In this document: positions 127-37,651 of the stretch, piece after piece
Numbering within the stretch: position 1 is the first letter of the stretch
Layout of the letters: each line of letters begins with the position of its first letter
IMG/VR virus record: IMGVR_UViG_3300010373_000086
Coordinates: 1-40,091 of that record
Length of the DNA stretch: 40,091 nucleotides
Reading direction: 5' to 3' (one strand)
From: a virus
Translations under genes and position numbers: made by a program
Notes under the pieces: model-generated
What the model was told of the DNA's origin: nothing
The model's input: only the letters and a program-made list of their open reading frames with translations
Databases searched by the model: none

Positions 127-246
127 TCTGGGTAGCTACCAACCGGCGTGCTTACTTGTTGATCGTTCTCGTTGCACCACACCCATGAAAGCCGTCCGCG
201 CTGCCCAGTAGCTTCTTGAGGGCTTCCTGTCTAGGGAAGTGAGTAG

Positions 247-318
247 GCCCTCGTAGCTCAGCGGAAGAGCACCTAGCTGCTAACTGGGAGGTCGCGGGTT
301 CGAATCCCGCCGGGGGCC
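247..318 (+). tRNA. tRNA with GCU anticodon (serine AGY) but a class I body
   Basis: A full cloverleaf folds: acceptor 247-253 with 311-317 (7 pairs, one T-G), D stem 256-259/267-270 with G263-G264 in the loop, anticodon stem 272-276/284-288, T stem 294-298/306-310 with the loop TTCGAAT. The anticodon at 279-281 is GCT, which reads serine AGC/AGU. The variable loop is only 5 bases (289-293), whereas bacterial tRNA-Ser has a long variable arm needed by seryl-tRNA synthetase. The discriminator is C318 and CCA is not encoded. G246 could pair with C318, giving a G-1:C73 pair as in tRNA-His. It lies on the strand opposite to the phage late genes. Confidence 0.85.
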
Positions 319-450
319 TTATTCAAGCTGGAGGCTCATCCTCCTGCATCTTGACAAGCCGTCCGGACACCACGTAAGATGGTCCGTAGCAGCTAGGCAG
401 AAGTTCCGCTGGGTGGCCAACCAAGTTCGGTACCCAAGCAAGATTGGCGT

Positions 451-3104: not shown

Positions 3105-3932
3105 TTATTTCCCTTTCGGATAGAGGCGAGAACGCAAGACGCGTATCTCGCGGTTGACAGCAGCCCCACGCCTGAATAGGGGCGTGCAAGCTGGACGGGG
3201 ATGATTGACTCGACAACCCGCGTTGACGAGGTGTCGGCGGATCTTGGCCCGTTCAACATCGAGCCTTTTCAGCTCGGCGTGTTCGGCGGCCCGATTGCGT
3301 TTCGCTGGTTTCGCGACAGGCAACAGGAGGAGCCGCACCTCGGCTTCACGGCGTGTCCTCAACCCGGGGAGAACTACTCCTCCTGCGTGATCGTAGGCGA
3401 GCATGATTCGGCTGGCCGCATAGATCCGACCGCTGGCTAGGTCGGCTCGTAGCGTTCCTGTAAAGATCCCGGCGCCGAGATTGTAGGCGAAGCTGTCGAG
3501 CGCATCGACCTCATGCTGGTTGAATGGGTAGCCGATCTGGTGGACAGCCCACTCGTATTCGATCTGGACGGAACGCTTGAGGTTAACCTCGGCGGCTTCC
3601 CGGCTCGCGAAACAGAACCCTCGGTATATGCCTTTAGTCTGACCAAACCCAGCCGTGTAGACACGACCATACGGGTCCCAGTAAGCGCACCGCGAATACC
3701 CCTCGAAGCCCTCGACCAGATGCAGCCCTGTCGAGTCGATCGTCAACTGGTGCGTCACCGTCGGTGGTAGCGAGACCGGAGGCCTCGCGGTAATAGCGCC
3801 TTCGGGCGTGACAGAAGATTCCGGCTGGATGTAGGTCACTTCCGGTGCGGGCACACTCACGGTGTGTGTGACCGTCGATCCGCACCCAGCGACTAGTAGC
3901 GCAGCACTGAACGCTACGAAACACTTCTTCAT
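3105..3932 (-). CDS. GH24 phage lysozyme with lipoprotein signal (endolysin)
   Basis: 275 residues from the ATG at 3932, preceded by GGGAGG. The N-terminus is a lipoprotein signal (MKKCFVAFSAALLVAGC, lipobox Cys17), followed by a Thr/Pro-rich linker to about residue 65. The GH24 catalytic region is VEGFEGYSRCAYWDPYGR and VYTAGFGQT: E77, D86 and T93 correspond to the Glu-Asp-Thr triad of T4-type lysozymes. The domain continues to about 210 (SFAYNLGAG, PGLRTRR), then a basic coiled-coil tail with two Cys to the end. It would cut the glycan strands of peptidoglycan. A lipidated lysozyme is unusual: it would be exported by the host Sec system and held at the outer face of the membrane rather than wait for a holin. 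It sits just upstream of the holin candidate. Confidence 0.88.
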   Translation of the reverse strand: MKKCFVAFSAALLVAGCGSTVTHTVSVPAPEVTYIQPESSVTPEGAITARPPVSLPPTVTHQLTIDSTGLHLVEGFEGYSRCAYWDPYGRVYTAGFGQTKGIYRGFCFASREAAEVNLKRSVQIEYEWAVHQIGYPFNQHEVDALDSFAYNLGAGIFTGTLRADLASGRIYAASRIMLAYDHAGGVVLPGLRTRREAEVRLLLLPVAKPAKRNRAAEHAELKRLDVERAKIRRHLVNAGCRVNHPRPACTPLFRRGAAVNREIRVLRSRLYPKGK

Positions 3933-4234: not shown

Positions 4235-5061
4235 CCCGCACTCCGATGATCGCTCCCTTTCCCGACGCCTACATGGATGTGCGGACCGTGTTCGACCCCT
4301 ACTTCCGTTTCGACTTCGGGCCCTTTGCCCTGTTCGGGCCCATGAGCCCGTTCGCTCTTATCAGGACCAGGCATAGGAGGAGGACTTGTAGGACCCGGAG
4401 GGGCCGGAGCCGGTGCGGGGACGGCCGGCGATGGTGAGGGTGAGGGTATGGGCACCATTGTTGGAGGCGAAGGATGCACGGGCCCCGGAGTCACATGGTG
4501 AGGTACGACCACAGGGTGATGTACGGATGGTCGACGAACGATCGGAGCCCCAATCGACGGTGCTACTAGCGCTTCGCCCTCCAACACGAGACTACGATCT
4601 TCAGGACTATCCGATGGTCTCCTGAGACCAACCGGAGTACCCGCACATGAGGATGCTGCAGGGATCTGTGCGACACGCTCAAGCGCTACCCGCCAACGAG
4701 CCTGAGCACGAGACGAGAGTAGATGGAAACCAGCTGCGATCCGCAACACAGCACCACCAGACAACGTCTCGTAATGCTTCAAACGACAATACGCATCAGC
4801 GGCCTGGATCGCTTGGGAGCGCTCCCGCTCAACCTCAGCTTCCAAACCCGCGATCAACACCCTGTTCTGAGAAGAGAGGGCTTCGAGAGCGTATGCCTGT
4901 TCCCCCAAACGTTTCGAGTCGTGACCCTGACCAAACAACGCGACGACTAGCAACACGAGGCTCGTCACGACAAGAGCGCACACGACGAACAAGCCGATCG
5001 TGCCGCGCCGCGTCAACCCATACACAGATCCATCCGTAGAAGTCTTGATAGTCCGGATCAA
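4231..5061 (-). CDS. Membrane-anchored coiled-coil protein with Pro- and His-rich tail
   Basis: 276 residues from a TTG start overlapping the upstream TGA (TTGA). Residues about 21-43 form one transmembrane helix; 47-90 are a coiled coil (LEALSSQNRVLIAGLEAEVE); the C-terminal 100 residues are a low-complexity Pro/Ser/Ala stretch ending in a His/Gly/Glu-rich tail. The layout (short inside, helix, coiled coil, Pro-rich stalk) resembles proteins that span the cell wall, such as spanin-like or tail-tip anchor proteins. No enzymatic motif is visible. Low-complexity tail makes homology searches unreliable. Confidence 0.7.
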   Translation of the reverse strand: MIRTIKTSTDGSVYGLTRRGTIGLFVVCALVVTSLVLLVVALFGQGHDSKRLGEQAYALEALSSQNRVLIAGLEAEVERERSQAIQAADAYCRLKHYETLSGGAVLRIAAGFHLLSSRAQARWRVALERVAQIPAASSCAGTPVGLRRPSDSPEDRSLVLEGEALVAPSIGAPIVRRPSVHHPVVVPHHVTPGPVHPSPPTMVPIPSPSPSPAVPAPAPAPPGPTSPPPMPGPDKSERAHGPEQGKGPEVETEVGVEHGPHIHVGVGKGSDHRSAG

Positions 5062-5369
5062 CGGCCCATCCCCCCACTCACCAGCAGCGTCAACCCAACC
5101 AACACCACGCTCGATACGATCGCCGCGATAACCGCCACCCGCAACGTCTGTTTAGACTGGCGAGCTTCCGCCGCCGGATTCCCCGCGAGTTCGTCGATCT
5201 TGGTCGATAGTCGAGCTATCGCACCAGCAGGATCAGTCAACTCACGCTTAATCCAGCGCAGGTCGGTCTTGAGCTCTGTGACCTGGGTCGGCAGGCCGTT
5301 CATGTGGCGCTCCACCTGTCCGACACGCCTAGCGAGTTCGTCCAAGCGCGAATCAGGCTCTGGGACCAT
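5058..5369 (-). CDS. Coiled-coil protein with C-terminal membrane helix (XhlA-like layout)
   Basis: 103 residues. Residues 5-65 are a heptad-rich coiled coil (RLDELARRVGQVERHMNGLP), and 77-98 form a hydrophobic helix (VAVIAAIVSSVVLVGLTLLV) followed by a short polar end. This matches the layout of XhlA-type haemolysin/holin-associated proteins that pair with a holin and endolysin in phage lysis cassettes. The assignment rests on topology and position only. Its stop overlaps the TTG start of the next gene. Confidence 0.7.
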   Translation of the reverse strand: MVPEPDSRLDELARRVGQVERHMNGLPTQVTELKTDLRWIKRELTDPAGAIARLSTKIDELAGNPAAEARQSKQTLRVAVIAAIVSSVVLVGLTLLVSGGMGR

Positions 5370-5476
5370 GACTCACTACATGCTCGTGATCGATGATCTT
5401 CCTTGCTGGGCGCATCGTCGAGCTGGATATAGACATTGTCCAAGAACCCCCATGATTCGTTGAGACGGAGACAGGA

Positions 5477-7007
5477 TTAGACGTTGACTGTCATTTCGAT
5501 TGTGAGCAAATAGTCACCACTCGCGCCTCCGATAAGACGCACATACGCATATGGCGCACCAAGCGCTACCTGTTTCAGTGCGCGCTTGATGCTGTACCGG
5601 CCCACGTTCGAGACGGCGCCATCCGTGGCACCCAGATCGACGCCCGAGACCTCCAGACGCCACCCCGTCCCATTCAGGACCTGCACGACGACGGCGGCAC
5701 TCACAATATCTTCGAGGTTCGCTGGCAATACCACCCTGCCGTAACCGTCAGGCGCTGAGTGCGCTGGCGCACCAGCGCTCGTAGCACCACCAGGCGTGCC
5801 CGTTACAAGCGCTCGGCTGCCCTGATATGTGCGGCGTGGACCGAAGATCGCTGCGTGCAACCGCTTCAATGCTGCACGAGGTGTGCGTGGACGTTGACGG
5901 AACCCGACCGTGGGTGCTCCGATCCCGTCGGGTCGGTGCGACCAAGTGACGGTCGTGAGTTGTCGCGGCGTCTCGTCTTGCACGTCGATTCGCGACAGTC
6001 CCACCATACGCGTTGATTTCGGCACTGGACATGTCCGGCCATTCGTTTGAGCGCCGGAACTCGGCAGTCAGTTCGCCCGCGACGAACGCGAAGATCCGGT
6101 CGTAGCGCGCTACGAAACGGAGATCGACGGGTCCTGGTACAACGAGGCCCTGTCTCTTAGCGGTAACGTTGCGCTCGGGTACCCCGATGAGTATCGTCGA
6201 ACCGTCAAACACATCTACTTGCAGCGAAAGACCAGCGACGTCCAGACGAACAAATGACGCGCTCGCAGCCGTCGGCTGTGCGGAGACCCACCGCAACCTC
6301 GCCTCGCATGTCCAACAGTCGGTGCTGATACCCGACAGTTCTTGCGTATAGGACGCTGCTCCCCATTTGCCGACAGCCCCGGTCTGCATGACCGTGAGAT
6401 CGGCTCCATAGGCAAGCACGGGTATCCGCGTGTAATGACCCAGAACGTCGGCGGGGGCAGTGCCGTCCCACACGTCCACTTCGCTGCTGATTGCGCCTGC
6501 GAGCACTACGGGAAGATCGGTACCCTTGATCGTGATCGTGGACTTGCTCTTTTCATAGTCGGTTGGTGTACCGACATAGACAAGATCGTTTGGGTCGCGC
6601 CAGAACTCCAACCACTCCTCGCCGGGCTCATAAGCAGTATCCGTTAGGATACGAAACCGGCGACGGTGGAGAACACCATCATCCCCAGCAGCGTTTGGGA
6701 GGACGACGGTGAATGATCCGTCGTCTGATAGCACCGCAGTCGTCTCGGCTGCTTGCCAGCCCTGCCTACCCTGTAGACCGTCCTCGCCTGTGACAGTATC
6801 ATCACGAACGAAATACGCGCGAGCTACCTCTATCGCAGACGGGTCACCCGGCTCGCCGCGGCGCACATGCTTGATCCAGCACTCGGATGGATCAATGGAT
6901 CGGGGGTCTGGGCTCGCTTCGAGTGGCTGCGCTGTACTTTCGCCGCCAAGTTCTTCTCCGGGGGGGAGCGGGGATGGTTCCCCTCCAAGCAGCGTAAGAA
7001 GCGGCAT
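5477..7007 (-). pseudogene. Minor tail protein split by a one-base shift near 6000
   Basis: Two frames join into one protein. The first frame (from 7007) is convincing up to SSAEINAYGG and then turns into Arg/His-rich nonsense; the second frame is convincing from SRIDVQDETPRQL to its stop at 5477. The switch falls at a GGG at 6000-6002; with one G removed the gene reads straight through as about 509 residues. The N-terminal 60 residues are Pro/Gly/Glu-rich; the middle has beta-rich, Calx-beta-like and LamG-like features (FTVVLPNAAGDDG, GELTAEFRR); the C-terminus is beta-rich. No catalytic motif. It is most likely a virion surface or tail-tip protein. The shift could be real decay, a +1 programmed event, or a sequencing error. 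Confidence 0.65.
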
Positions 7008-7019
7008 CGCCTAGTCTTA

Positions 7020-7643
7020 TTAACCCGAGAGTCCGTACAGCAACACGTACGTCCAAGGGGATTCGTCGGACGGGTTGACCTGGATTGAGAACTGCTTAGG
7101 AATAAAGGCGTTCGCGGTCTCCATAGTAACTGTGGGTGATTCTGTGCTTAGCGTTTCGCCCGTAATCCATGATCTAGTATCAAGACCAGGCCCAATCTGA
7201 TACAGGAAAGTGTTGACCGTTTTGACAGGCAGGAAATGAACCATATTGCCCACATCACAGCCTACCGATACTCCGAGCGCTCCAGTTCCGGCCACAGTAA
7301 CGGTGAGCCTGATATGAAGCATATTGTGGTTGTAATTCAGGATTACTCCCGTATTACCCCTAGAGGTGCGATTTTCCAATGGCAGTCCAACTTCGTTGAA
7401 CAAATTGCCACGCATTCTGTCCAATGTGCCTTCTTTATTCAAGAGGCAAAGCTCAACAGGTATCGCTTCGGATGCGGGTTCACCATCTTTCGTGTTCCCC
7501 GACAGAGGTCTCCAACCCGTGCCATCCCATACCATAGCCCCCGTGTTCTCTACAACACTGCCCGCGTTATGGTATCCACCTGGCTGTATATCGGATGCAA
7601 TCGTTTCTTCTTCACCTTTAGCATTGATCCTTGTAGAGCCCAT
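7020..7643 (-). CDS. Minor tail/virion protein, paralogue of the gene at 15110
   Basis: 207 residues from the ATG at 7643, with GGAGG 6 bases upstream; the longer open frame overlaps the next gene and is not credible. It is a beta-rich protein that shares a scaffold with the protein at 15110-15790: MGS start, (M)LWNG/VWDGTGW, LCxxEG(T/N)xDxxRxN, NYNxxxLHIxLxxT, a QxxPGL(D/E) block and a C-terminal QIQV-PSD-S-WTY-YxL end. The two are therefore diverged copies. Function unknown; the repeat use and location between minor tail genes suggest a virion decoration or tail-fibre component. Confidence 0.75.
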   Translation of the reverse strand: MGSTRINAKGEEETIASDIQPGGYHNAGSVVENTGAMVWDGTGWRPLSGNTKDGEPASEAIPVELCLLNKEGTLDRMRGNLFNEVGLPLENRTSRGNTGVILNYNHNMLHIRLTVTVAGTGALGVSVGCDVGNMVHFLPVKTVNTFLYQIGPGLDTRSWITGETLSTESPTVTMETANAFIPKQFSIQVNPSDESPWTYVLLYGLSG

Positions 7644-8544: not shown

Positions 8545-8826
8545 TTAGACCGTGGCGCACTCTAAGGGCACAGTCTGACCCTTTTTCGCCCGCTTGTGGA
8601 AGAAGTCAAGGTATTCGGCCTCGCTCAACCCTGCGTTTTGGATCTGCTTCTTGAGTAGTGCTCGCTTGACCTCGCGGTGGTCGGGGATCGAGAGGTGTCC
8701 CTTTCCATCCATGGAGAGGATGAAATGCTTGCCGTTTCCTCGCCTTTTGAGGCAAGTCCACCCGGCACGCTCAAATGCCTTGACGTGGCTGCTTCCGCTC
8801 GCTAGCGGAAGATCGCTTTGGCCCAC
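8545..8826 (-). CDS. hicA: HicA-family mRNA interferase toxin
   Basis: 93 residues from a GTG at 8826. The HicA/YcfA fold is clear: SGSSHVKAFERAGW, then KRRGNGKHFIL with the catalytic His34, and LSIPDHREVKRALLKKQIQ. HicA toxins use a double-stranded-RNA-binding-like fold to cleave mRNA and are held inactive by HicB. The C-terminus extends about 20 residues past the typical end (FFHKRAKKGQT). It follows hicB with 3 bases between them, in the antitoxin-first order. Confidence 0.88.
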   Translation of the reverse strand: MGQSDLPLASGSSHVKAFERAGWTCLKRRGNGKHFILSMDGKGHLSIPDHREVKRALLKKQIQNAGLSEAEYLDFFHKRAKKGQTVPLECATV

Positions 8827-8829
8827 GAG

Positions 8830-9243
8830 CTAGAGATGAACGCTGAATCGACGAGCAACCCCGGTGGGCATATCTAGATCAAGCTCCCGGAAGTGTTCCT
8901 CCATCTTTGCGGCGACGATACCGTGGATGGCGTCGATCAAGTTCTCCACGGCCTCCTCCTCGGTCTCGCCCTGCGCCATTGCCCCTGGTATATCTGGGGT
9001 CTCGGCAACGAAGCCTCCGTCGGTTGTGTCGGCCTCCACGACGACCTCGATATTCCATGTACCGCGCTCATTGACGTTGGGCGGATTGCGGATCGTCTCG
9101 CGCCCGTCCTCAGCCCTACCGAGAATCTTGCGCAATGCGGCGAAGAACGCAATGACCGGCTTCGGTACCGGCGAGGGCGCGTAGCCCGCGTCCGAAGCCT
9201 CATCGGGCCTGCAAACGGACCCCTTGGCCTCCTGTACGGTCAT
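8830..9243 (-). CDS. hicB: HicB-family antitoxin
   Basis: 137 residues from the ATG at 9243 (AAAGGAG upstream, spacing 7); the longer frame start at 9276 has no such site. The N-terminal 60 residues are not typical. The HicB RNase-H-like core starts near residue 65 (TWNIEVVVEADTTDGGFVAE) and continues TPDIPGAMAQGETEEEAVEN, as in the family. No C-terminal ribbon-helix-helix or HTH is seen after the core, so DNA binding, if any, would come from the atypical N-terminus. It should neutralise HicA and, in many systems, repress its own promoter. Confidence 0.85.
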   Translation of the reverse strand: MTVQEAKGSVCRPDEASDAGYAPSPVPKPVIAFFAALRKILGRAEDGRETIRNPPNVNERGTWNIEVVVEADTTDGGFVAETPDIPGAMAQGETEEEAVENLIDAIHGIVAAKMEEHFRELDLDMPTGVARRFSVHL

Positions 9244-28595: not shown

Positions 28596-29224
28596 TGTTG
28601 CTCCTTCCAACTAGAGCCGGCAGGGCCTGGGATAGCGTGCTCCAGGTAGTAGGCATCTTCTGCGTCGGGCTCCGTCACGTACCAGGACATGTGGCGCGCC
28701 TGATAAGGAGCACCAGTGCGGACCGCTCGATAGTCGAACCGCGCTCCAGGCCGATAGAGAGCGAAAGTGGTGTCGATGAGCGAGTCGAAGGCGCCGGGCT
28801 CAAGTTCCCGGTCTGGTGAGACGAGCGACTGCTCCCATTTGAGGCTTGGGAGCGTTGCCGGAAGATCGTCCAGATGCAATCCAAGACCAGCCTTCGGGAA
28901 CGTGGGATATCGCTCCAGAAGGTCGTATAGATGAGCTACAGCATCGTGTGGACACTCTGCGATCGGTATGACGTCGGGGTCTGTGTAGACGAACCACTCG
29001 CCGGGCACGAGGTCTGTGATCCAGAGTGCGCGTGAGCCGGCGTTCCGTCCGAGATGGATGACTTCGTGCGACGTCGCCTTGTAGTAGGCAAGCAGCGGCT
29101 CGTAGGTCGAATCGTTGTCCAGCAGGACAATGCGCTCATGACTCGCAGTCTCAAGCCATTCGACTAGCGCGCGTAGAGGTGTTACACGGTCTCGGCAGTT
29201 TATGTAGATCGGGGTGTCGCTCAC
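28592..29224 (-). CDS. Glycosyltransferase, GT-A type
   Basis: 210 residues, GTG start in a GTGA overlap with the epimerase stop. LLDNDSTYEPLLAYY and the DxD-containing FVYTDPDVIPIAE (D82, D84) are typical of GT-A enzymes, which use a nucleotide sugar and a divalent metal. The acceptor is not deducible. It is one of several such genes between capsid and connector genes. Confidence 0.75.
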   Translation of the reverse strand: MSDTPIYINCRDRVTPLRALVEWLETASHERIVLLDNDSTYEPLLAYYKATSHEVIHLGRNAGSRALWITDLVPGEWFVYTDPDVIPIAECPHDAVAHLYDLLERYPTFPKAGLGLHLDDLPATLPSLKWEQSLVSPDRELEPGAFDSLIDTTFALYRPGARFDYRAVRTGAPYQARHMSWYVTEPDAEDAYYLEHAIPGPAGSSWKEQQ

Positions 29225-30081
29225 GCCGCCAAAGCGCGCCTGACGCCCTCCTCAACGCTGATCTTCGGCTCGTAATACTGTCGGAGTAGCGAGTTGTCGC
29301 ACACGCGGTGGAGAACACCCACGGGCTTGTCGCTGAGGTGCCTGACGGCGACGTCGTAGCCTGCTGCCTTCATGCAGAGCTGGGCAAGCTCGTCCATTGA
29401 CGTGGGAACACCCGTACCGAGGTTTACGGGACCGTCTACGCCAGAGTGAGCGAGAACTAGGACCGCCGAGACAAGATCGTCGATGTGGATGAAGTCCCTG
29501 ACCTGCGTTCCGTCGCCCCAGACGACAAAGGGATCGTCGTGGCGCTTGGCTCGACGGATGAATTCGGGGAACGGGTAGCAGTCGTCTTGGTCGTGGTCGT
29601 AAGAGGAGAACGGTCGCACGACGGTGACGGGGACCACGGTGGTGCGGACGCACTGGGCGACCATCTCGCCCGTCAGCTTCGCCCACCCGTAGCTCTCGTC
29701 CGGTACCCCGATCAGGTCAAAGCGAATGTCGTCCTCAGCGAGTTTGCAAGCTTTCTGCTGGAGGGCGACCGGATAGGAAGCCGCGCTCGAGAAGAACACG
29801 ACACGCTCGGGTCTCGTGCGTAGCGCCCACTCAAAGAGTGCTCCGTCGAGCTGAAGATTGTTAGCTCCGAGAAGCGCGGCATTGCAGTCGATGCCCTCTC
29901 GGCCGCCTACGGTCGCCGCACAGTGGAAGACGAGGCCGAAGTGTTGGTCGCTTGCGAATAGGTCTCGGCAGTCGAGGTCTTCCTTGAGATCACAGCGGAA
30001 CACATTGTGGCCTTCGCCCTCAAGGGCCGTAACGAGGTGCCTGCCGATGAAGCCAGCGGAGCCGGTGACGAGGACGCTCAC
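29221..30081 (-). CDS. NAD-dependent sugar epimerase/dehydratase (extended SDR)
   Basis: 286 residues from a GTG at 30081. VLVTGSAGFIGRHLV (Gly-rich NAD site), SSAASYP (Ser), YGWAK (Y131, K135) and RDFIHIDDLVSAVL are the hallmarks of extended SDRs acting on nucleotide sugars, such as GDP-sugar or UDP-sugar epimerases and reductases. The exact substrate cannot be told. It most likely makes the sugar donor used by the neighbouring glycosyltransferases. Confidence 0.88.
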   Translation of the reverse strand: MSVLVTGSAGFIGRHLVTALEGEGHNVFRCDLKEDLDCRDLFASDQHFGLVFHCAATVGGREGIDCNAALLGANNLQLDGALFEWALRTRPERVVFFSSAASYPVALQQKACKLAEDDIRFDLIGVPDESYGWAKLTGEMVAQCVRTTVVPVTVVRPFSSYDHDQDDCYPFPEFIRRAKRHDDPFVVWGDGTQVRDFIHIDDLVSAVLVLAHSGVDGPVNLGTGVPTSMDELAQLCMKAAGYDVAVRHLSDKPVGVLHRVCDNSLLRQYYEPKISVEEGVRRALAA

Positions 30082-30734
30082 AAGATGCTCCGCACACGGT
30101 CAACGATCCCGGGATGCTCGTCGGCGATAAACGCTGCGTACGCTTGCCGATCGTGCTCATAATGCGAGTCGTTGGCTCGGTTCACGTCGTCCTCCTGCGC
30201 CTTTCCGGCAGACGGGTGCAAATGCTCTATGAGGACATCCGGCAGATACTTGGAGCGCCCGATATCGGTTGCGAGTTTCAGCCAGTAGTTGTCGGCGTAC
30301 AAGTGCTTGAGTGCCGGCGGGAAGAACCAGCCAAGCTTCCGGATGATGTCGGCCGACCAAAACGGTGCGGTGGGTAGTCGCTCGTCTTGGAGACCGTCTG
30401 CCGTGTACACGAGCCCAGACCGAATCGTGCCCATCGCGTCTTCGACTGCTGTGTCCCAGCCTTGAGTGCGGGGCCGGTGATCGTCACCAAAGGACGCGAG
30501 GATGTCCGCGCCATCGGCCAGGGCGAGCAGGGCGAGATAGTTCGTCCAAGGCGCAAGCTGCTTGCGCGGCCCGACTACATAGCGAACGTCCGGAAGCCTC
30601 TCGTAAAAATCGGCGTCGTCTTCGTCGAGCCCCACGTAGATTGCGATGTCGCCGCCAGCCGTTTCGCGTGCCGCTTCGATCATTTCCGTGAGTTGCCGCG
30701 GCCGCGCGCGAGAGGGCGTAAGGACGGCGATCAC
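30078..30734 (-). CDS. Glycosyltransferase-like protein (GT-A)
   Basis: 218 residues from a GTG at 30734 that overlaps the upstream TAG (TAGTG); the longer frame to 30851 would run through the neighbour. VIAVLTPSRARPRQLTEMIE, AIYVGLDEDDADFYERLP, and ADILASFGDDHRPRTQGWD (DDH in the DxD position) point to a GT-A fold. Later motifs (WFFPPALKHLYADNYWLKLA) resemble family 2-type transferases. Acceptor unknown. Confidence 0.75.
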   Translation of the reverse strand: MIAVLTPSRARPRQLTEMIEAARETAGGDIAIYVGLDEDDADFYERLPDVRYVVGPRKQLAPWTNYLALLALADGADILASFGDDHRPRTQGWDTAVEDAMGTIRSGLVYTADGLQDERLPTAPFWSADIIRKLGWFFPPALKHLYADNYWLKLATDIGRSKYLPDVLIEHLHPSAGKAQEDDVNRANDSHYEHDRQAYAAFIADEHPGIVDRVRSIL

Positions 30735-31237
30735 TACCAGCACCCATGCGTCGGCATGATCTCCTCGCCATCCTGCACGCGAAGATGTTCGAGCGGTGGT
30801 CCGTGTACACACTTGGTCTCGCCCGCCGACTCGAGCACTCCCTGGAGCCACGCGTCAAGGCGACACCAGTGCTTCGGTGGATGATGCTCGTCGCCCTCGT
30901 TTTCGGCCACCCGCGCGAGTGCGTCGGGGACCCTAGCTATGAGATCAGCAGTGAACTTGGCGCACCCAAGGCCCGCATACTCGACACCCACGTAGGGCAC
31001 AAGGAAGCTGCACCAATCAGACGGGCATTCGTCTAGTTCGTTGAGCGTATCGGAGCGAACAACGACGTCGTGCTCAACCACACAGAACGTCTCCCCCGTG
31101 TTCCACAGCGAGTCGAAGAGTCCCCAGTAAGCACTATCACCACCGGCCACGTTGTGTGGCCACCATTCATGGCCTGTCAGCTCAAGGGCACGGCAGACCG
31201 GGGCGCAAGAGTGCGTAAACGGTAGGATCACTCGCAA
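30734..31237 (-). CDS. Glycosyltransferase-like protein
   Basis: 167 residues. WGLFDSLWNTGETFCVVEHD and NELDECPSDWCSFLVPY parallel the protein at 32482 (VNVEHDMECSDELIQQLLDC, then CPHPLCTHAY), with EHD as the presumed metal-binding motif. Short for a full GT-A domain. A TTG at 31237 (GAGGAG upstream, good spacing) or GTG at 31231 (GTGA overlap) may be the start. Confidence 0.65.
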   Translation of the reverse strand: MRVILPFTHSCAPVCRALELTGHEWWPHNVAGGDSAYWGLFDSLWNTGETFCVVEHDVVVRSDTLNELDECPSDWCSFLVPYVGVEYAGLGCAKFTADLIARVPDALARVAENEGDEHHPPKHWCRLDAWLQGVLESAGETKCVHGPPLEHLRVQDGEEIMPTHGCW

Positions 31238-31824
31238 GCGAACAGCTCCTCTCCCGGCCAGCCGGGCAACAAGTCAAACACCTTCGGATTGCCGAGACCG
31301 ATCCACCTCTCAGCGTCGAACCGGCTCTCCGTTGAGCACTCGGGCAACGTGCGCAGATAGTCACACCGCGCCATCCAATAATTGCCTCCAAAGAACGGCG
31401 TTGTGACATATGACGGCCACTGCTCGGCGGTCAGCCAGTGGCAACCCACAGCGTCATGCTCGTCAAGCATCGCGAGGTTCTCTCGCCACCTGGCGACCAC
31501 TCGCCGACACATTGAACGCCGCCATCGAGCACGAAAGTCGCTCGTGTCGTGCGCGCCCTTTGTGTGTGCGTAGAGGACTGCCCCATCATGCGTTTGGGCG
31601 TACTCGCGGACGGCACGGAGTGTCACCTGCTCCCAACCCTCGAATGCCATGACGATCGGTGGATGGTCTATCGCACGAGTCGCCGCGTCTATCTCGGTTG
31701 TCGATCCGACGACCCCCCAAAGCATCTGATGTCGGAACCCGGAGGCTACGAGCGCTTCTCGATGCTCGATCAGCGGTGTCCGCCACTCTCCACCCGCATA
31801 TACATGGTAAAAGTGCGCGAGCAC
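31228..31824 (-). CDS. Glycosyltransferase-like protein
   Basis: 198 residues from a GTG just after the upstream TAG. AHFYHVYAGGEWRTPLIEHR, LYAHTKGAHDTS and FGGNYWMARCDYLRTLP are motifs I associate with sugar transferases of capsule or rhamnan biosynthesis. Trp/His-rich. No membrane segment. Belongs to the same cassette. Confidence 0.7.
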   Translation of the reverse strand: MLAHFYHVYAGGEWRTPLIEHREALVASGFRHQMLWGVVGSTTEIDAATRAIDHPPIVMAFEGWEQVTLRAVREYAQTHDGAVLYAHTKGAHDTSDFRARWRRSMCRRVVARWRENLAMLDEHDAVGCHWLTAEQWPSYVTTPFFGGNYWMARCDYLRTLPECSTESRFDAERWIGLGNPKVFDLLPGWPGEELFACE

Positions 31825-32382
31825 CTAGACCTGTACGACCTTGAACGGTCCCCGAACATACGGCGTCAGCTTCTCTGCTGCGTCTAGCGCCGCGAGGATC
31901 TTGGATTCGGGCGTGCCGTTGCCGTCGCGCAGCACGTATAGCGCCCCCGTGGCCCAGCTACCACCGGAACCAACGGCGTCGAAGCCTTGGACTGCCCTAC
32001 CTACTTGAAAATCACTCTCGACTTGGTAGAGCTTGCCTCGCCAGCCGACCAAGAATGTGCCGCCAGACTCTTCACCATTGACGACTTTTGCGTAGCCGCC
32101 TTCTTTGAGCACTGTCCGCACGCCGTCGATAAACGCTGTGCTCATGAACTTGATCTCGGCGGCGGCATCGTCCACTGGCACCTCGTGTCGCTCTAGCGCG
32201 AGCGTCAGCTTGTACCTGAGGAGTTGCCCCATTCGGAAGCTGCTCGTGAAGCCGAAGGCGAATCCCTTGTCGACCCAGACCTTCTCGTCAGCTCGAATCG
32301 TCAGCGAGCTGCCATCACTCCCGGCCGAGTCGCCTCCGATCCACACCTTCCCGGCGTGCTCGATCCCAGCAATACAGGTCAT
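31825..32382 (-). CDS. Proteasome-like Ntn hydrolase
   Basis: 185 residues. Removal of Met1 exposes Thr at the N-terminus (TCIAGIEHAGKVWIGGDSAG). With that Thr as residue 1, Asp17 (GGDS) and Lys33 (ADEKVW) fall exactly where catalytic residues of proteasome beta subunits and HslV sit; GSGGSWATGAL supplies the later Gly/Ser segment. This supports an active N-terminal threonine hydrolase, perhaps a peptidase. No propeptide is present, as in HslV. Substrate and partner ATPase are unknown. It lies in the glycosylation cassette, 100 bases from the upstream gene. Confidence 0.85.
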   Translation of the reverse strand: MTCIAGIEHAGKVWIGGDSAGSDGSSLTIRADEKVWVDKGFAFGFTSSFRMGQLLRYKLTLALERHEVPVDDAAAEIKFMSTAFIDGVRTVLKEGGYAKVVNGEESGGTFLVGWRGKLYQVESDFQVGRAVQGFDAVGSGGSWATGALYVLRDGNGTPESKILAALDAAEKLTPYVRGPFKVVQV

Positions 32383-32481: not shown

Positions 32482-32970
32482 CTATCTGTGGTAGTGCTCA
32501 ACTTCGGGCCAATGCACATGCCAAGGCCCCTCAGTCGCCTTGGTGACATCGCAGTCCACGGTTTGCCACGGACTCTCAACCAACGCGCTGACGCGAGCCT
32601 CTGGGGTGATCTTGCAGAAGCCGATCCCGGTGAACCCGCACCATTCGACGCCCTCTTTGATCCATTCGCCGTAGTTCGGGCCACCATCACGTTGCGCGTA
32701 GTGCGGTCTGACTTGGTGTGTTGACGGCCAGTAGAGCTTGTAGGCGTGTGTGCAGAGCGGATGAGGACAGTCGAGTAGCTGTTGGATCAGTTCGTCCGAG
32801 CACTCCATGTCATGCTCGACGTTCACAATCGTCGCATCGGTACCCCACACGGCATGGAGTCCGCGTGAGTAGTCGGTGTCTCCGACACATTCGACTGCTA
32901 CGCCCTCAAACTGTTGTGCCTTGAAGTGCTCCTCACCTGGAAGGTGTGAGCACACGACGAGCGTGCTCAG
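32482..32970 (-). CDS. Glycosyltransferase-like protein, probably CTG start
   Basis: 162 residues if it begins at the CTG at 32970, which overlaps the upstream TGA as CTGA and has GGGAG 5 bases before it; a GTG at 32955 has no ribosome binding site and would cut into the first beta strand (STLVVCSHLPGEEHF). WGTDATIVNVEHDMECSDEL carries EHD as the presumed metal site, followed by LLDCPHPLCTHAYKLYWPS and FTGIGFCKITPEAR. Related to the protein at 30734. Acceptor unknown. Confidence 0.7.
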   Translation of the reverse strand: MSTLVVCSHLPGEEHFKAQQFEGVAVECVGDTDYSRGLHAVWGTDATIVNVEHDMECSDELIQQLLDCPHPLCTHAYKLYWPSTHQVRPHYAQRDGGPNYGEWIKEGVEWCGFTGIGFCKITPEARVSALVESPWQTVDCDVTKATEGPWHVHWPEVEHYHR

Positions 32971-33230: not shown

Positions 33231-34775
33231 TTAGTCCGTGTAGCTGATCGTCGAAAGGCCTGTGCCGGTGATGACCACGATGCCGTTCGGGTAGCGAACG
33301 ATGATCGTCCGGTATGCGTACAACTGCAGGAGAACCTGGAGGTTCTTTGCCAGCGTCTGCGGGATCACGCGCATGACGGGATCACCCTCGAACCAGTACA
33401 CCTCGGCGAGATCGCCGATGACGACCTGGTCGCGGCCCGTCGTGCCCTGTGTCGGAATGTTCGCGTCAGTGAATGCACGCAACCCGTTGAACCGATAGCC
33501 AGTCGCACCCTCAATCCCGGCGTCTCCATCGGAGGAGCCGGCAGCTAGGGCGTTGAACGGTCCGGCATAGTCCGGTACGACAACCGGACGACCGTTGGCG
33601 TCCGCCCACGCGGCGATGAACTCCCATCGCGCCGGGTCGTAGAAGGCGTGCGTCGGGTTCAAGACGGTGCCTTCCGCCTTGCGAATAAACGCCTTCGCCT
33701 TCGAGACCTGTCCGTAGAAGCCACCGGAGCCCGGCAGAGAACCGGATGGAGGTGTCAGCACGAACGAGCCGCTGTTGCCCGTCCAGGACTGTTCCTTGGC
33801 GACCGCGATGACTTTCGACAGCGCGTACGTGTTGACCTTCGGCGCATAGTCACGCTGAAGCTGGTCGAACAGCATCTTGTCGTAGCTGAAGTTCGGTCCA
33901 GCACGATCCAAGAGCTGCTGAGTGACAGTCACCTCACCAGCCTCAGTCCCGAGCGCACCCGCCAAGAACCCGGCGGCGGGATCTTTCTCAGCGATACCTT
34001 CGCCCTCGGTCTGTTCCGCAACTTCCGCTCCACTCGTGATCTGCGGGATGTAGACATTCATCCCCCAGTCGGGGAGAGGCTGCTTGTTGCACTGGTCAAC
34101 GAACGCCCGGCCGTACTCGCGCCACGGCGCGTAATCTCCGAGCATGATGATCGGTGAGACGAACGCTGCTCCACCACCGCCGGACGCGGACGCGCTTGCG
34201 CCACCGCCGGTAGTGATGCCCGTGCGCTCCTCGACCTTCTGCTCCAGCGCGGCGCGTCCGCGAGAGCGGAACTCCTCCATCGCTTCTTGTCCTGGGCCTG
34301 CGCCAAGCTCGCGGCTCAGCTCACGCATCTGCTTCTCGGCTACTTTGCCGACTTTTGAGTCGTTGGCGTACTCGCGCTCAATCTGGTGCTCCCAGCGATT
34401 GAGCCGCTCAGACGCTCCACCATCCGTCGTCTGGCCGAGTCGGGCCATCGTTCGGCGTGCTAGGTCGAGGGCGTGCGAGTGAGGTGAGCCCGGTCCGTAG
34501 ACCATCGGTTCCTCGGTGACCTGGGCGTCGGTCCTTGACTCGGCGGGAGTAACAAGCGCCCGGGCGTCGGAGACCATGCGTCGCTTCTCCTCGGCGCGCT
34601 TCTCCTCGGCGATGCGATCGTCGAATTCGTCGATCTCGGAGATGAGGGCCTGACTGCGGGTCTCCTCGTCCTCGGTGAGATCGCGTTTCTCCGTCTCGAC
34701 GAGCGTTGTCAGGCCCTCGAGCTCGGTCGTCTTTGTATCGCGCTCCTCTAGAAGCGCCTTGAGAATCTTCGGCAT
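33231..34775 (-). CDS. Major capsid protein (HK97 family)
   Basis: 514 residues from the ATG at 34775 (AAAGGGG upstream; a longer frame to 34856 has no site). Residues 1-190 are charged coiled coil (LLEERDTKTTELEGLTTLVE, EEKRAEEKRR), the built-in delta/scaffold domain usually removed by the prohead protease. From about 200 (AFVSPIIMLGDYAPWREYGR) to the end the HK97 fold is recognisable: E-loop region, TVTQQLLDRAGPNFSYDKML, LNPTHAFYDPARWEFIAAWA and a final FEGDPVMRV strand. The neighbouring protease agrees with a processed capsid. Confidence 0.92.
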   Translation of the reverse strand: MPKILKALLEERDTKTTELEGLTTLVETEKRDLTEDEETRSQALISEIDEFDDRIAEEKRAEEKRRMVSDARALVTPAESRTDAQVTEEPMVYGPGSPHSHALDLARRTMARLGQTTDGGASERLNRWEHQIEREYANDSKVGKVAEKQMRELSRELGAGPGQEAMEEFRSRGRAALEQKVEERTGITTGGGASASASGGGGAAFVSPIIMLGDYAPWREYGRAFVDQCNKQPLPDWGMNVYIPQITSGAEVAEQTEGEGIAEKDPAAGFLAGALGTEAGEVTVTQQLLDRAGPNFSYDKMLFDQLQRDYAPKVNTYALSKVIAVAKEQSWTGNSGSFVLTPPSGSLPGSGGFYGQVSKAKAFIRKAEGTVLNPTHAFYDPARWEFIAAWADANGRPVVVPDYAGPFNALAAGSSDGDAGIEGATGYRFNGLRAFTDANIPTQGTTGRDQVVIGDLAEVYWFEGDPVMRVIPQTLAKNLQVLLQLYAYRTIIVRYPNGIVVITGTGLSTISYTD

Positions 34776-34812
34776 GGGGTATCCCCTTTGGATTGGTGTG
34801 GACTTTCCACAC
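34776..34812 (-). promoter_or_regulatory. Hairpins in the capsid gene leader
   Basis: GTGTGGA (34796-34802) and TCCACAC (34806-34812) form a 7-bp hairpin with a 3-base loop, and GGGG-TAT-CCCC (34776-34786) can form a 4-bp stem that holds the capsid gene's ribosome binding site next to its ATG. The 147-base gap between protease and capsid genes contains no other gene. It may stabilise or tune the strongly expressed capsid mRNA. Confidence 0.45.
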
Positions 34813-34922
34813 GCGTCCCGGACCCCTGAGCTAGCGCGCGCCGCAGTACTCCCCAATATGGGTTTCCTTGACCGTCACGTTGCCGCGCAGAGCGGTACCT
34901 ACGTGGTTACTGCAAGATTTGG

Positions 34923-36323
34923 TTAGGCAGCGATACGTCGCCGCTTACGTGCCTCTAGCTGGAGGCGCAACCTGGCTGCCGACGAGCCGCGGATCTTCTC
35001 GCCAGGATCTACCTGTGAGCGAGCGCCCGTACCGTCCGTGTAGCCCGGTGCGCTAGCTTCCGCACCCGTCGCGTCGCCACCCTGGGAGGCATCATCTGTC
35101 GTGCTGACACCCGGTTCCCTCTCGTCGCCAAGCTCTTGCTCGTCGCCGTCGTTGGGCTCCTCGATCAGGTCAGCAGGATCAAACCCGGCGCCGCCCAATA
35201 CCTCGTGGAGTGTCTTGACTGCGCCCACCAGCTTGTCCTGATTGCCCTGGGAGAGAACCTTTCCGGCTCGAACCTCAACGTACATTTGGCGCACCCGGGC
35301 ACGAGACTCTTCTGGCATCGCTAGCGCCATGCGCTGGGCGATCTTGAGGGTAGTAGTCGGAGATGCTGGATATGTGACGCCGCTTACGTCGAGTAGGTCG
35401 GCGAATTTGGTGACTGATCGTTGGTCCTTGGCCTCATTCCATTTGTCGTGCGCGACGATGAACCCACACGACATCTGTGACAGGTCCTCGCGTTCGATCG
35501 CGATAGCGAGATCGTTTGCTAGCTGCTGGCGAGCATCGAGTTTTGCGACAAAGCGCAGTGCTGTTGCCGAGTCCTCGAGCGCCATCGTGCCCGAAGTGGT
35601 CCGGGCGAGAGGCAGACCCTCGTGGTTTATGAGGAACCGTACGTCGGCACCTCGTGCGAGGACGTCCGAGGCGACGCCGGGGAGCATTCGCTCCTCGAAC
35701 TCGCCGAACATGTCCACGACCGTGTACGGCTCGTTGTAGACAATTGGTTCGCCACTGATCAGGATCTCGTCGCTAGTGCTGCTGCTACGCACTTCGAGTC
35801 GTGTGGCGCTGAAGTGGCGTATCTCGGGCATCAACGGTATAGCACGGTGGCGTTCGCGCTTGCGTCGAGCGACGGGCGCTTTGGATTGGCGCTCTGCCCC
35901 TTGCGCGGTCTCGTCGCGGGCTTCGGTGGCGTTTCCCGTGCCGCCACAGTCGGGGCACTTGACGTGTCCGTCGCGGATCTTGCCGGTGCCGTCACAGGTC
36001 GAGCACTTCGCTCGCTCCTCGACCACAGTGTCAGCGTCGTTCTGTTGCTTGAGCGACCCGTCCGCTTGCCAGGTGTCGGGGATCAAGTCAGAACAGCCAA
36101 GAGCAGAGGCGCGGGCCATGATGTGTTTGCGGATTGCGTTGTGTGACGAGTCGCCCATGCCGACAGCTTTGATGGCTTTTTCGACATCTTCCTTGTCCTT
36201 TATCGGGAAGGATTCGTCGGGCATAGCCTCTTTGCCGGCCATTTCTTTGCGTTCCTTGACGTTGTACTTGTCGCGCGTTTCGGCCTCGAAGGCAGCGATG
36301 CGCTCCTCATGCGTGTCCATCAC
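34923..36323 (-). CDS. Prohead protease with N-terminal DnaJ-type zinc finger
   Basis: 466 residues. Residues 25-90 are a helical module common in phage proteins (MPDESFPIKDKEDVEKAIKA, HIMARASALGCSDLIPDTW). Residues 107-126 hold CSTCDGTG and CPDCGGTG, a single DnaJ-type CxxCxGxG pair. From about 168 the HK97 U35 protease begins: FLINHEGLPLARTTSG (H234), LSQMSCGFIV (S285) and DLLDVSGVTYPA (D312 as third residue). The C-terminal 120 residues are acidic and Gly/Ser-rich. It should cut the capsid delta domain. No good ribosome binding site marks an internal start, so the long form is taken. Confidence 0.85.
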   Translation of the reverse strand: MMDTHEERIAAFEAETRDKYNVKERKEMAGKEAMPDESFPIKDKEDVEKAIKAVGMGDSSHNAIRKHIMARASALGCSDLIPDTWQADGSLKQQNDADTVVEERAKCSTCDGTGKIRDGHVKCPDCGGTGNATEARDETAQGAERQSKAPVARRKRERHRAIPLMPEIRHFSATRLEVRSSSTSDEILISGEPIVYNEPYTVVDMFGEFEERMLPGVASDVLARGADVRFLINHEGLPLARTTSGTMALEDSATALRFVAKLDARQQLANDLAIAIEREDLSQMSCGFIVAHDKWNEAKDQRSVTKFADLLDVSGVTYPASPTTTLKIAQRMALAMPEESRARVRQMYVEVRAGKVLSQGNQDKLVGAVKTLHEVLGGAGFDPADLIEEPNDGDEQELGDEREPGVSTTDDASQGGDATGAEASAPGYTDGTGARSQVDPGEKIRGSSAARLRLQLEARKRRRIAA

Positions 36324-37651
36324 TTACCTCCCTTGGCCGGGACATCCCCGTCCTCGTCATCATCTGGTGGTTCCTGTTTGCTTTGCCCTTCGGTCTGACC
36401 AGGCGCGACGTTCGAGGCGAGGGGTGCCATGACATCGTCGCCGCCTTCGACGGGTGCCCAGCCAAGCCGGCGAGTGCGTACGTCGTTAATCGAACCGACT
36501 TGCGTTCCTCGCAATGCGGTGATTTCTTCGGCGAGAGCCGCAGCGTTTGGTCGGGAGAGCTTGTTCTCTTCAAACGCCGCCATTTTGTCCTTAGGCAGAA
36601 GATTCGAGTAGGCCTCTTCCAGCGGGACCAAGAACCCGGAGAGTGTGTGCTGCAGGAACCTCATGGTCTCTTCCTGCATCGACCCGGCTGGTGGTGGTGT
36701 GACTCGTTGGAGGGCGTTGCTGTTGGCGAACTCAACGCCGAACCAGGAGAAGATGACTGACCGGGCGTACTCCAATGTCTGGAGGTACTGTGCCTCGTCG
36801 GGCGTGTTGAGCACCTTGTCGGCTTTCAAGCCGTTGTCGAGCACCAGCGGCAGATGGGCGGCCTGCAAGCCAGAGTGCTCAAGCATGAACTTCTGGGCGA
36901 TCCGTTCAACCTCCGGCTGTCCCAGCTTTGCATCGGTAGACAACAGGAATGACGGTGATGTGCCCTGTGAGAACCATGCTGAGCCGAACTCGTATGCGGC
37001 CATCGCGAGCGCACCAGCAACCCCCGCGTACTCGATAGGACTCAGTGCTCGCCTAGCCCCGGGGAGCGACTTGAGCGGGATATGGACCACATCCTCAGGG
37101 TCCAATGTGCGCTTGTGAATGCCTGTCCCGTATTCGTAAATCGGGTTGCCTTCTTTGTCTGCCTTCACCTCCATGAAGGCCGGGTGGAGTACGTCTAGGA
37201 CGAGCGGGTATTGCAAGCGGTCCCGAGCGAGCACATACCAGAAGCACTCACCGAACAGAGCCATGCTCCACACGGTGCGATCGTTGCCGGTGCATTGCAT
37301 CATCCGCCCACCCCACGTATCTGTGAGGATTTCCGGCTGTTTGGCGTCCCACACGCGGTAGGGAATGTTGTCGTCTGACAGTTTCTCGGAATAGGAGCGC
37401 GGGTTCCCGAGCTTGATCATGTTGTTCGAGATGATCCGCAGACAGGTAAACACGACATCCACTTGCAGCAGCGTGTGCTGCGTCACGACTACGCCTGCAC
37501 GCTGCTGGTTGAACATGCCGGGTGGCGGGATCGCCGAGGGGTCCATCCACCCGTAGCCGTTAGGCCACGATGTTTGTATTCCGCTACGGGTCTCGCTTCC
37601 AGGAAGCTTTCGGTTGCCCCCCCTGGTCGCTACGACATGGGTCGCGGACAT
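36320..37651 (-). CDS. Portal protein (HK97 family)
   Basis: 443 residues. VDVVFTCLRIISNNMIKLGN, VHIPLKSLPGARRALSPIEY, EFGSAWFSQGTSPSFLLSTD, and the C-terminal ALAEEITALRGTQVGSINDV with RRLGWAPVEGGDD are typical phage portal segments. The last 40 residues are acidic and disordered. It forms the DNA gate at the capsid vertex. Its stop overlaps the protease start, and the gene before it is adjacent, as expected for packaging genes. Confidence 0.92.
   Translation of the reverse strand: MSATHVVATRGGNRKLPGSETRSGIQTSWPNGYGWMDPSAIPPPGMFNQQRAGVVVTQHTLLQVDVVFTCLRIISNNMIKLGNPRSYSEKLSDDNIPYRVWDAKQPEILTDTWGGRMMQCTGNDRTVWSMALFGECFWYVLARDRLQYPLVLDVLHPAFMEVKADKEGNPIYEYGTGIHKRTLDPEDVVHIPLKSLPGARRALSPIEYAGVAGALAMAAYEFGSAWFSQGTSPSFLLSTDAKLGQPEVERIAQKFMLEHSGLQAAHLPLVLDNGLKADKVLNTPDEAQYLQTLEYARSVIFSWFGVEFANSNALQRVTPPPAGSMQEETMRFLQHTLSGFLVPLEEAYSNLLPKDKMAAFEENKLSRPNAAALAEEITALRGTQVGSINDVRTRRLGWAPVEGGDDVMAPLASNVAPGQTEGQSKQEPPDDDEDGDVPAKGGK

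Follow-up and report, generated by a model that had tools for sequence, protein, structure and literature searches.

In their 2021 survey (PMC8665760), Fuchs, Alva and Lupas catalogued 22 proteasome homologs, among them two groups that are common in phages, PPH and AAH. The gene context of the phage homologs was not suggestive, a co-occurring AAA+ partner was not found, and the two families have been known since then without a functional clue. AAH proteins retain the catalytic triad, are compact with helices H1-H4, have no propeptide and are distributed among alphaproteobacteria, actinobacteria and phages; a head-cassette context was not reported for them. PPH proteins carry the same triad but comprise ~140 residues and lack helix H2. 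BPH, the betaproteobacteria proteasome homologue (5ovs; PMC5777263), exposes Thr1 by losing its Met and binds epoxomicin, and no unfoldase is known for it; it is characterised by a tetradecameric double ring with a long acidic pore loop. It was inert on standard peptides and on casein. No assayed phage HslV-like protease was found in the openly accessible literature.

Family membership and predicted fold

The window, which is the whole 40,091-nucleotide stretch of the IMG/VR virus record IMGVR_UViG_3300010373_000086 that was analysed, encodes a proteasome-like Ntn hydrolase. The coordinates given by the sequence-only reading were right, and the strand, which it had left unstated, is minus (Table 1); the plus strand over the same interval is interrupted by stops. 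The hydrolase matched phrog_1040 ('peptidase HslV family') over residues 1-184 (E 5e-17). This is a direct match to a family used for phage annotation, which is broad and whose name implies no tested function. Members are present in 165 phage records, and the viral matches were other phage HslV-like proteins. The idea that such an enzyme is unusual in phages is thus not supported, as the family is already described as PHROG 1040 and as AAH/PPH (PMC8665760).

As a single sequence, the hydrolase had no match in Pfam and no significant match in the PDB, and PF00227 was matched weakly by just 22 of 62 relatives. A profile of 62 sequences identified HslV (E 1.8e-6), BPH (E 2.6e-5) and bacterial proteasome beta (E 4e-5) in the PDB. 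An AlphaFold2 model of the hydrolase (pLDDT 94.7, pTM 0.90) bore out the Ntn-type fold anticipated from the sequence. Foldseek placed BPH 5ovs first (E 2e-10, TM 0.78) and HslV 1m4y second (E 1.5e-9), with BPH, HslV and proteasome matched at a probability of 1.00 and an Ntn beta-sandwich of proteasome-like topology. BPH, at about 20% identity, shares Thr1, Asp17, the Lys, the oxyanion glycine and the lack of a linked unfoldase. HslV (ClpQ) was the second-best structural match and among the top sequence matches; however, the hydrolase scored 12.4 bits against an equivalog cut-off of 137-158, which makes it an HslV relative rather than a true HslV.

All four helices were present in the model (H1 at residues 49-58, H2 at 73-94, then 141-151 and 158-172). 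Membership of PPH is disfavoured by the presence of helix H2 and by the length of 185 residues. By size, helices and distribution, the hydrolase fits best with the AAH group, its relatives being located on Rhizobium/Sinorhizobium plasmids, on a Streptomyces plasmid and in phages. The gene was present in only one other genome, as a weak match, among 246 genomes drawn from the phylum of genome G051.

Active site and gene structure

The encoded protein begins MTCIAGIEHAGKVWIGGDSAGSDGSSLTIRADEKVW..., and removal of the Met leaves Thr as residue 1, Asp as residue 17 and Lys as residue 33, the spacing of the proteasome. The ATG is the earliest start codon after the preceding in-frame stop, so a propeptide could not be encoded with an ATG, GTG or TTG start. 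The residue count and the position of the ATG upheld both the triad spacing and the lack of a propeptide proposed earlier. A purine-rich stretch (GGAAAGGG) precedes the start. A scan for promoters and terminators around the gene gave no signal beyond shuffles.

Residue conservation was analysed in the window hydrolase and 84 related phage and bacterial genes (n = 85). An alignment-based scan had identified 283 viral relatives, of which 80 were kept, and the earlier matches were added to give the 84. The start codon was followed at once by Thr in 85/85 sequences, and Asp17, Lys33, Gly43, Ser47, Arg49, Asp123, Gln125, Gly137 and Gly139 were invariant, so that the three catalytic residues named in the sequence-only reading are kept throughout. 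The invariance of Gly43, Ser47, Arg49 and Asp123-Gln125 is partly due to selection, because these residues lie inside the search patterns; the patterns did not include Thr1, Asp17, Lys33 or Gly137/139. The conservation of the Thr-Asp-Lys triad exceeds chance. It is also retained in more distant isolates, with Ser1 in Tenacibaculum phage pT24. In a codon comparison with the nearest relative, in contig L001, dN was 0.125 and dS 0.81 (dN/dS ~0.15), and the hydrolase is under purifying selection.

Gly43 aligned with the oxyanion glycine of HslV in the HMMER alignment, which rules out Ser47 as a substitute for this glycine. Ser138 (mature numbering) is the equivalent of proteasome Ser129; this position is a Ser in the window hydrolase and a Cys in 76/85 relatives.

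Genomic context and distribution

On the minus strand of the window the order of genes is terminase, portal, S78 protease, major capsid protein (MCP), o157, hydrolase, o198, o167, glycosyltransferase, epimerase, o210 and head-tail adaptor (Table 1). The glycosylation neighbourhood described previously was supported by the GT-A-like o198, the PHROG glycosyltransferase and the sugar epimerase. The structure matches of o198 were modest, with TM-scores near 0.5. For o167, a family search gave no match and the viral contig scan confirmed no relatives; several were identified by tblastn against the hydrolase and cassette loci. Because the start of the glycosyltransferase overlaps o167, translation may in fact begin further inside this frame. 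Residues 98-133 of the S78 protease, preceding the protease domain, contain a CxxCxGxG-like (zinc-ribbon-like) stretch.

The nearest isolates by MCP were mycobacteriophages (26% identity), and an actinobacterial host is therefore possible. Virion glycosylation has been documented in mycobacteriophages (PMC12363180).

Table 1. Features of the window, with the strand and the basis of each assignment
Feature	Coordinates	Strand	Basis	Remark
Proteasome-like Ntn hydrolase (185 aa)	31825..32382	-	PHROG, profile, model, residue conservation	
Portal protein	36320..37651	-	family matches	
S78 prohead maturation protease	34923..36323	-	family matches	
Major capsid protein (MCP)	33231..34856	-	phrog_2263, E 2.1e-26	
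o157, glycosyltransferase-like	32482..32955	-	motif only	upstream of hydrolase
o198, GT-A-like (nucleotide-sugar transferase fold)	31228..31824	-		directly downstream of hydrolase
o167, glycosyltransferase-like	30734..31237	-	motif only	common to L001 and other cassette phages
Glycosyltransferase	30078..30851	-	phrog_14945, E 2.6e-42	
NAD-dependent nucleotide-sugar epimerase	29221..30081	-	family matches	
tRNA-Ser (gct)	246..319	+		near window end; opposite strand to virion genes

Relatives of o198 were present in 18 viral records, and 17 of these had no hydrolase anywhere in the record (the exception was L001/L112); most of the records are fragments, so a phage could still carry the gene where its record does not show it. 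Six hydrolase-free records keep the MCP/o157/o198 cassette with the o157-o198 order. The o167 gene was present as well in five of the six, the remaining record (L113) stopping short of it. The gap between o157 and o198 in the hydrolase-free cassettes was as small as 12 and 49 bases, and no decayed hydrolase copy was detected over background in the empty cassettes. Cassettes with and without the hydrolase form natural comparison pairs.

The identity between L001 and the window was 85% for the hydrolase, 31% for the MCP and 48-58% for o157, o198 and o167, and the L001 hydrolase lies on the opposite side of o198 relative to the window. A 20-bp direct repeat (19/20; 3725-3744 and 4318-4337) surrounds the L001 gene; it may mark an insertion, or may represent a repeat associated with gene starts. 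The window yielded no comparable repeat. Given the absence from 17 of 18 records, the uneven identity to L001, the switched side of o198 and the flanking repeat, the hydrolase is considered mobile and dispensable, and it appears to be an accessory gene that moves between phages. In the related contig L110, consecutive stretches (3-626 and 875-2095) matched the window MCP at 53% and 32% identity, respectively, and the second resembles the MCP of L001, which suggests a phage with tandem capsid genes.

Of the 85 hydrolase loci, 46 had a gene for a terminase, portal, S78 protease or MCP within about 5 kb, often directly adjoining, in orders that included TerL-NTN-portal-S78-MCP, TerS-TerL-NTN-portal-MCP and portal-NTN-S78-MCP. 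These loci represent different phage types, because the terminase (phrog_9, 15, 2) and portal (phrog_12, 21, 30703) families differ. Where a record held both genes, the hydrolase was within 5 kb of the portal in 14/27, compared with 6.9 expected under random placement on the same contig (p ~0.003), and the two were on the same strand in 23/27. The corresponding figure for a DNA methyltransferase control was 1/10 (Fisher p 0.03). The contigs used for this portal-distance test are fragmentary, the ORF caller is simple and the control family is small. The tree required about 20 changes of the head-cassette label, at least seven of them forced by supported branches. Homologues in isolated phages are situated near RNR, PhoH, thymidylate synthase and similar genes, so the head-cassette position is not universal. 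The recurrent head-cassette context of phage proteasome homologs is new relative to the 2021 survey. Repeated nesting in terminase-portal-protease-capsid cassettes, combined with absence from sister phages, offers a first testable clue to the timing of enzyme production.

Proposed role and alternatives

An AAA_2-type ATPase was absent from the window and exceeded the cut-off in 1/49 related records, in line with the earlier statement that no ATPase adjoins the gene. An HslU/ClpX-type ATPase linked to the hydrolase was also sought and not found. We give an even chance to the hydrolase being an ATPase-independent, BPH-like Thr peptidase, carried as an optional cargo gene ('moron') in a head/glycosylation cassette. 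The host methionine aminopeptidase would take off the Met to expose Thr1, which would act as the nucleophile, activated by Lys33 and Asp17, with Gly43 providing the oxyanion hole. A double ring, as in BPH and HslV, would be the probable assembly. The enzyme would be made and be active late in infection and would act without a dedicated unfoldase, presumably cutting peptides or unstructured proteins; the inertness of BPH on standard peptides and casein means that peptidase activity cannot be presumed. Since the gene behaves as optional cargo, its target would more likely be a host or stress-related protein than a step on which capsid maturation depends.

The repeated placement in head cassettes counts against the cargo reading and could indicate a virion-linked role. 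As a protease of virion morphogenesis, the hydrolase would trim or clear scaffold, portal or capsid peptides, or would travel inside or on the head and be injected. This is rather unlikely in our assessment, although relatives are nested in TerL-portal-S78-MCP cassettes of several phage types, their proximity to the portal exceeds both the random expectation and the methyltransferase control, and the window gene follows shortly after the MCP. Sister phages share the MCP/glycosyltransferase cassette without a hydrolase, the homologues of isolated phages lie in replication and metabolism regions, and gaps between structural genes are frequent sites of cargo genes as well. An S78 protease is encoded in the window and accompanies roughly half of the portal-adjacent hydrolases; for this reason, the hydrolase was not accepted as a general substitute for the maturation protease. 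Processing of the capsid as a required step, which the sequence-only reading had entertained, is unlikely given the S78 protease, the similar cassettes without a hydrolase and the accessory distribution. A broader version, in which a clade of phage proteasome homologs was repeatedly recruited to the head-packaging operons of unrelated tailed phages, there to perform a shared late function linked to virion assembly or to be carried in the particle, is improbable in our judgement; if true, it would be the first known role of a viral proteasome-like enzyme.

In a further reading, the hydrolase could supply the peptidase of an HslVU-like machine whose unfoldase, e.g., HslU or ClpX, comes from the host, and the ranking of HslV among the top sequence and structure matches, together with the lack of an ATPase encoded nearby, is consistent with this. 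However, the structure matches BPH, for which no unfoldase is known, better than HslV, the score is far under the HslV equivalog cut-off, and no AAA+ protein was found to co-occur with these homologs in the survey of Fuchs et al. (PMC8665760); we regard a borrowed unfoldase as unlikely. A similarly low probability is assigned to a Thr-dependent amidase or protein ligase (transpeptidase) that would, e.g., modify a virion or host protein. Connectase provides the precedent, being a proteasome homolog that works as a monomeric ligase (PMC8665760), and the inertness of BPH as a protease (PMC5777263), the conserved residues that the hydrolase family has of its own besides the triad, and the location of the window gene within a glycosylation cassette all point in the same direction. 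Nevertheless, the hydrolase lacks the two-helix S3/S4 insertion of connectase and has the full set of four flanking helices; the glycosylation cassette also occurs without it, and most relatives lie outside such cassettes.

Bacterial homologues were identified on rhizobial symbiosis plasmids and on a plasmid of a nodulating Paraburkholderia (L102:8001-8546, L105:8001-8546 and L104:6001-6591). The Sinorhizobium americanum homologue lies between nifQ and nifS, and that of Rhizobium jaguaris is near nifH/nodD2. These plasmid-borne homologues nest among phage sequences in the tree. The copies beside nitrogen-fixation genes suggest that the same enzyme was adopted by cells.

Tandem hydrolase pairs were present at three loci (L005:4450-4980 and 5001-5552; L009:7783-8370 and 8662-9198; L017:6001-6552 and 6570-7454), and both genes of each pair retain Thr1 as well as an Asp and a Lys at the triad positions. 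It is conceivable that such pairs form hetero-oligomers. In the pair of Aeromonas phage 4L372D, the second hydrolase is of a different, PPH-like type.
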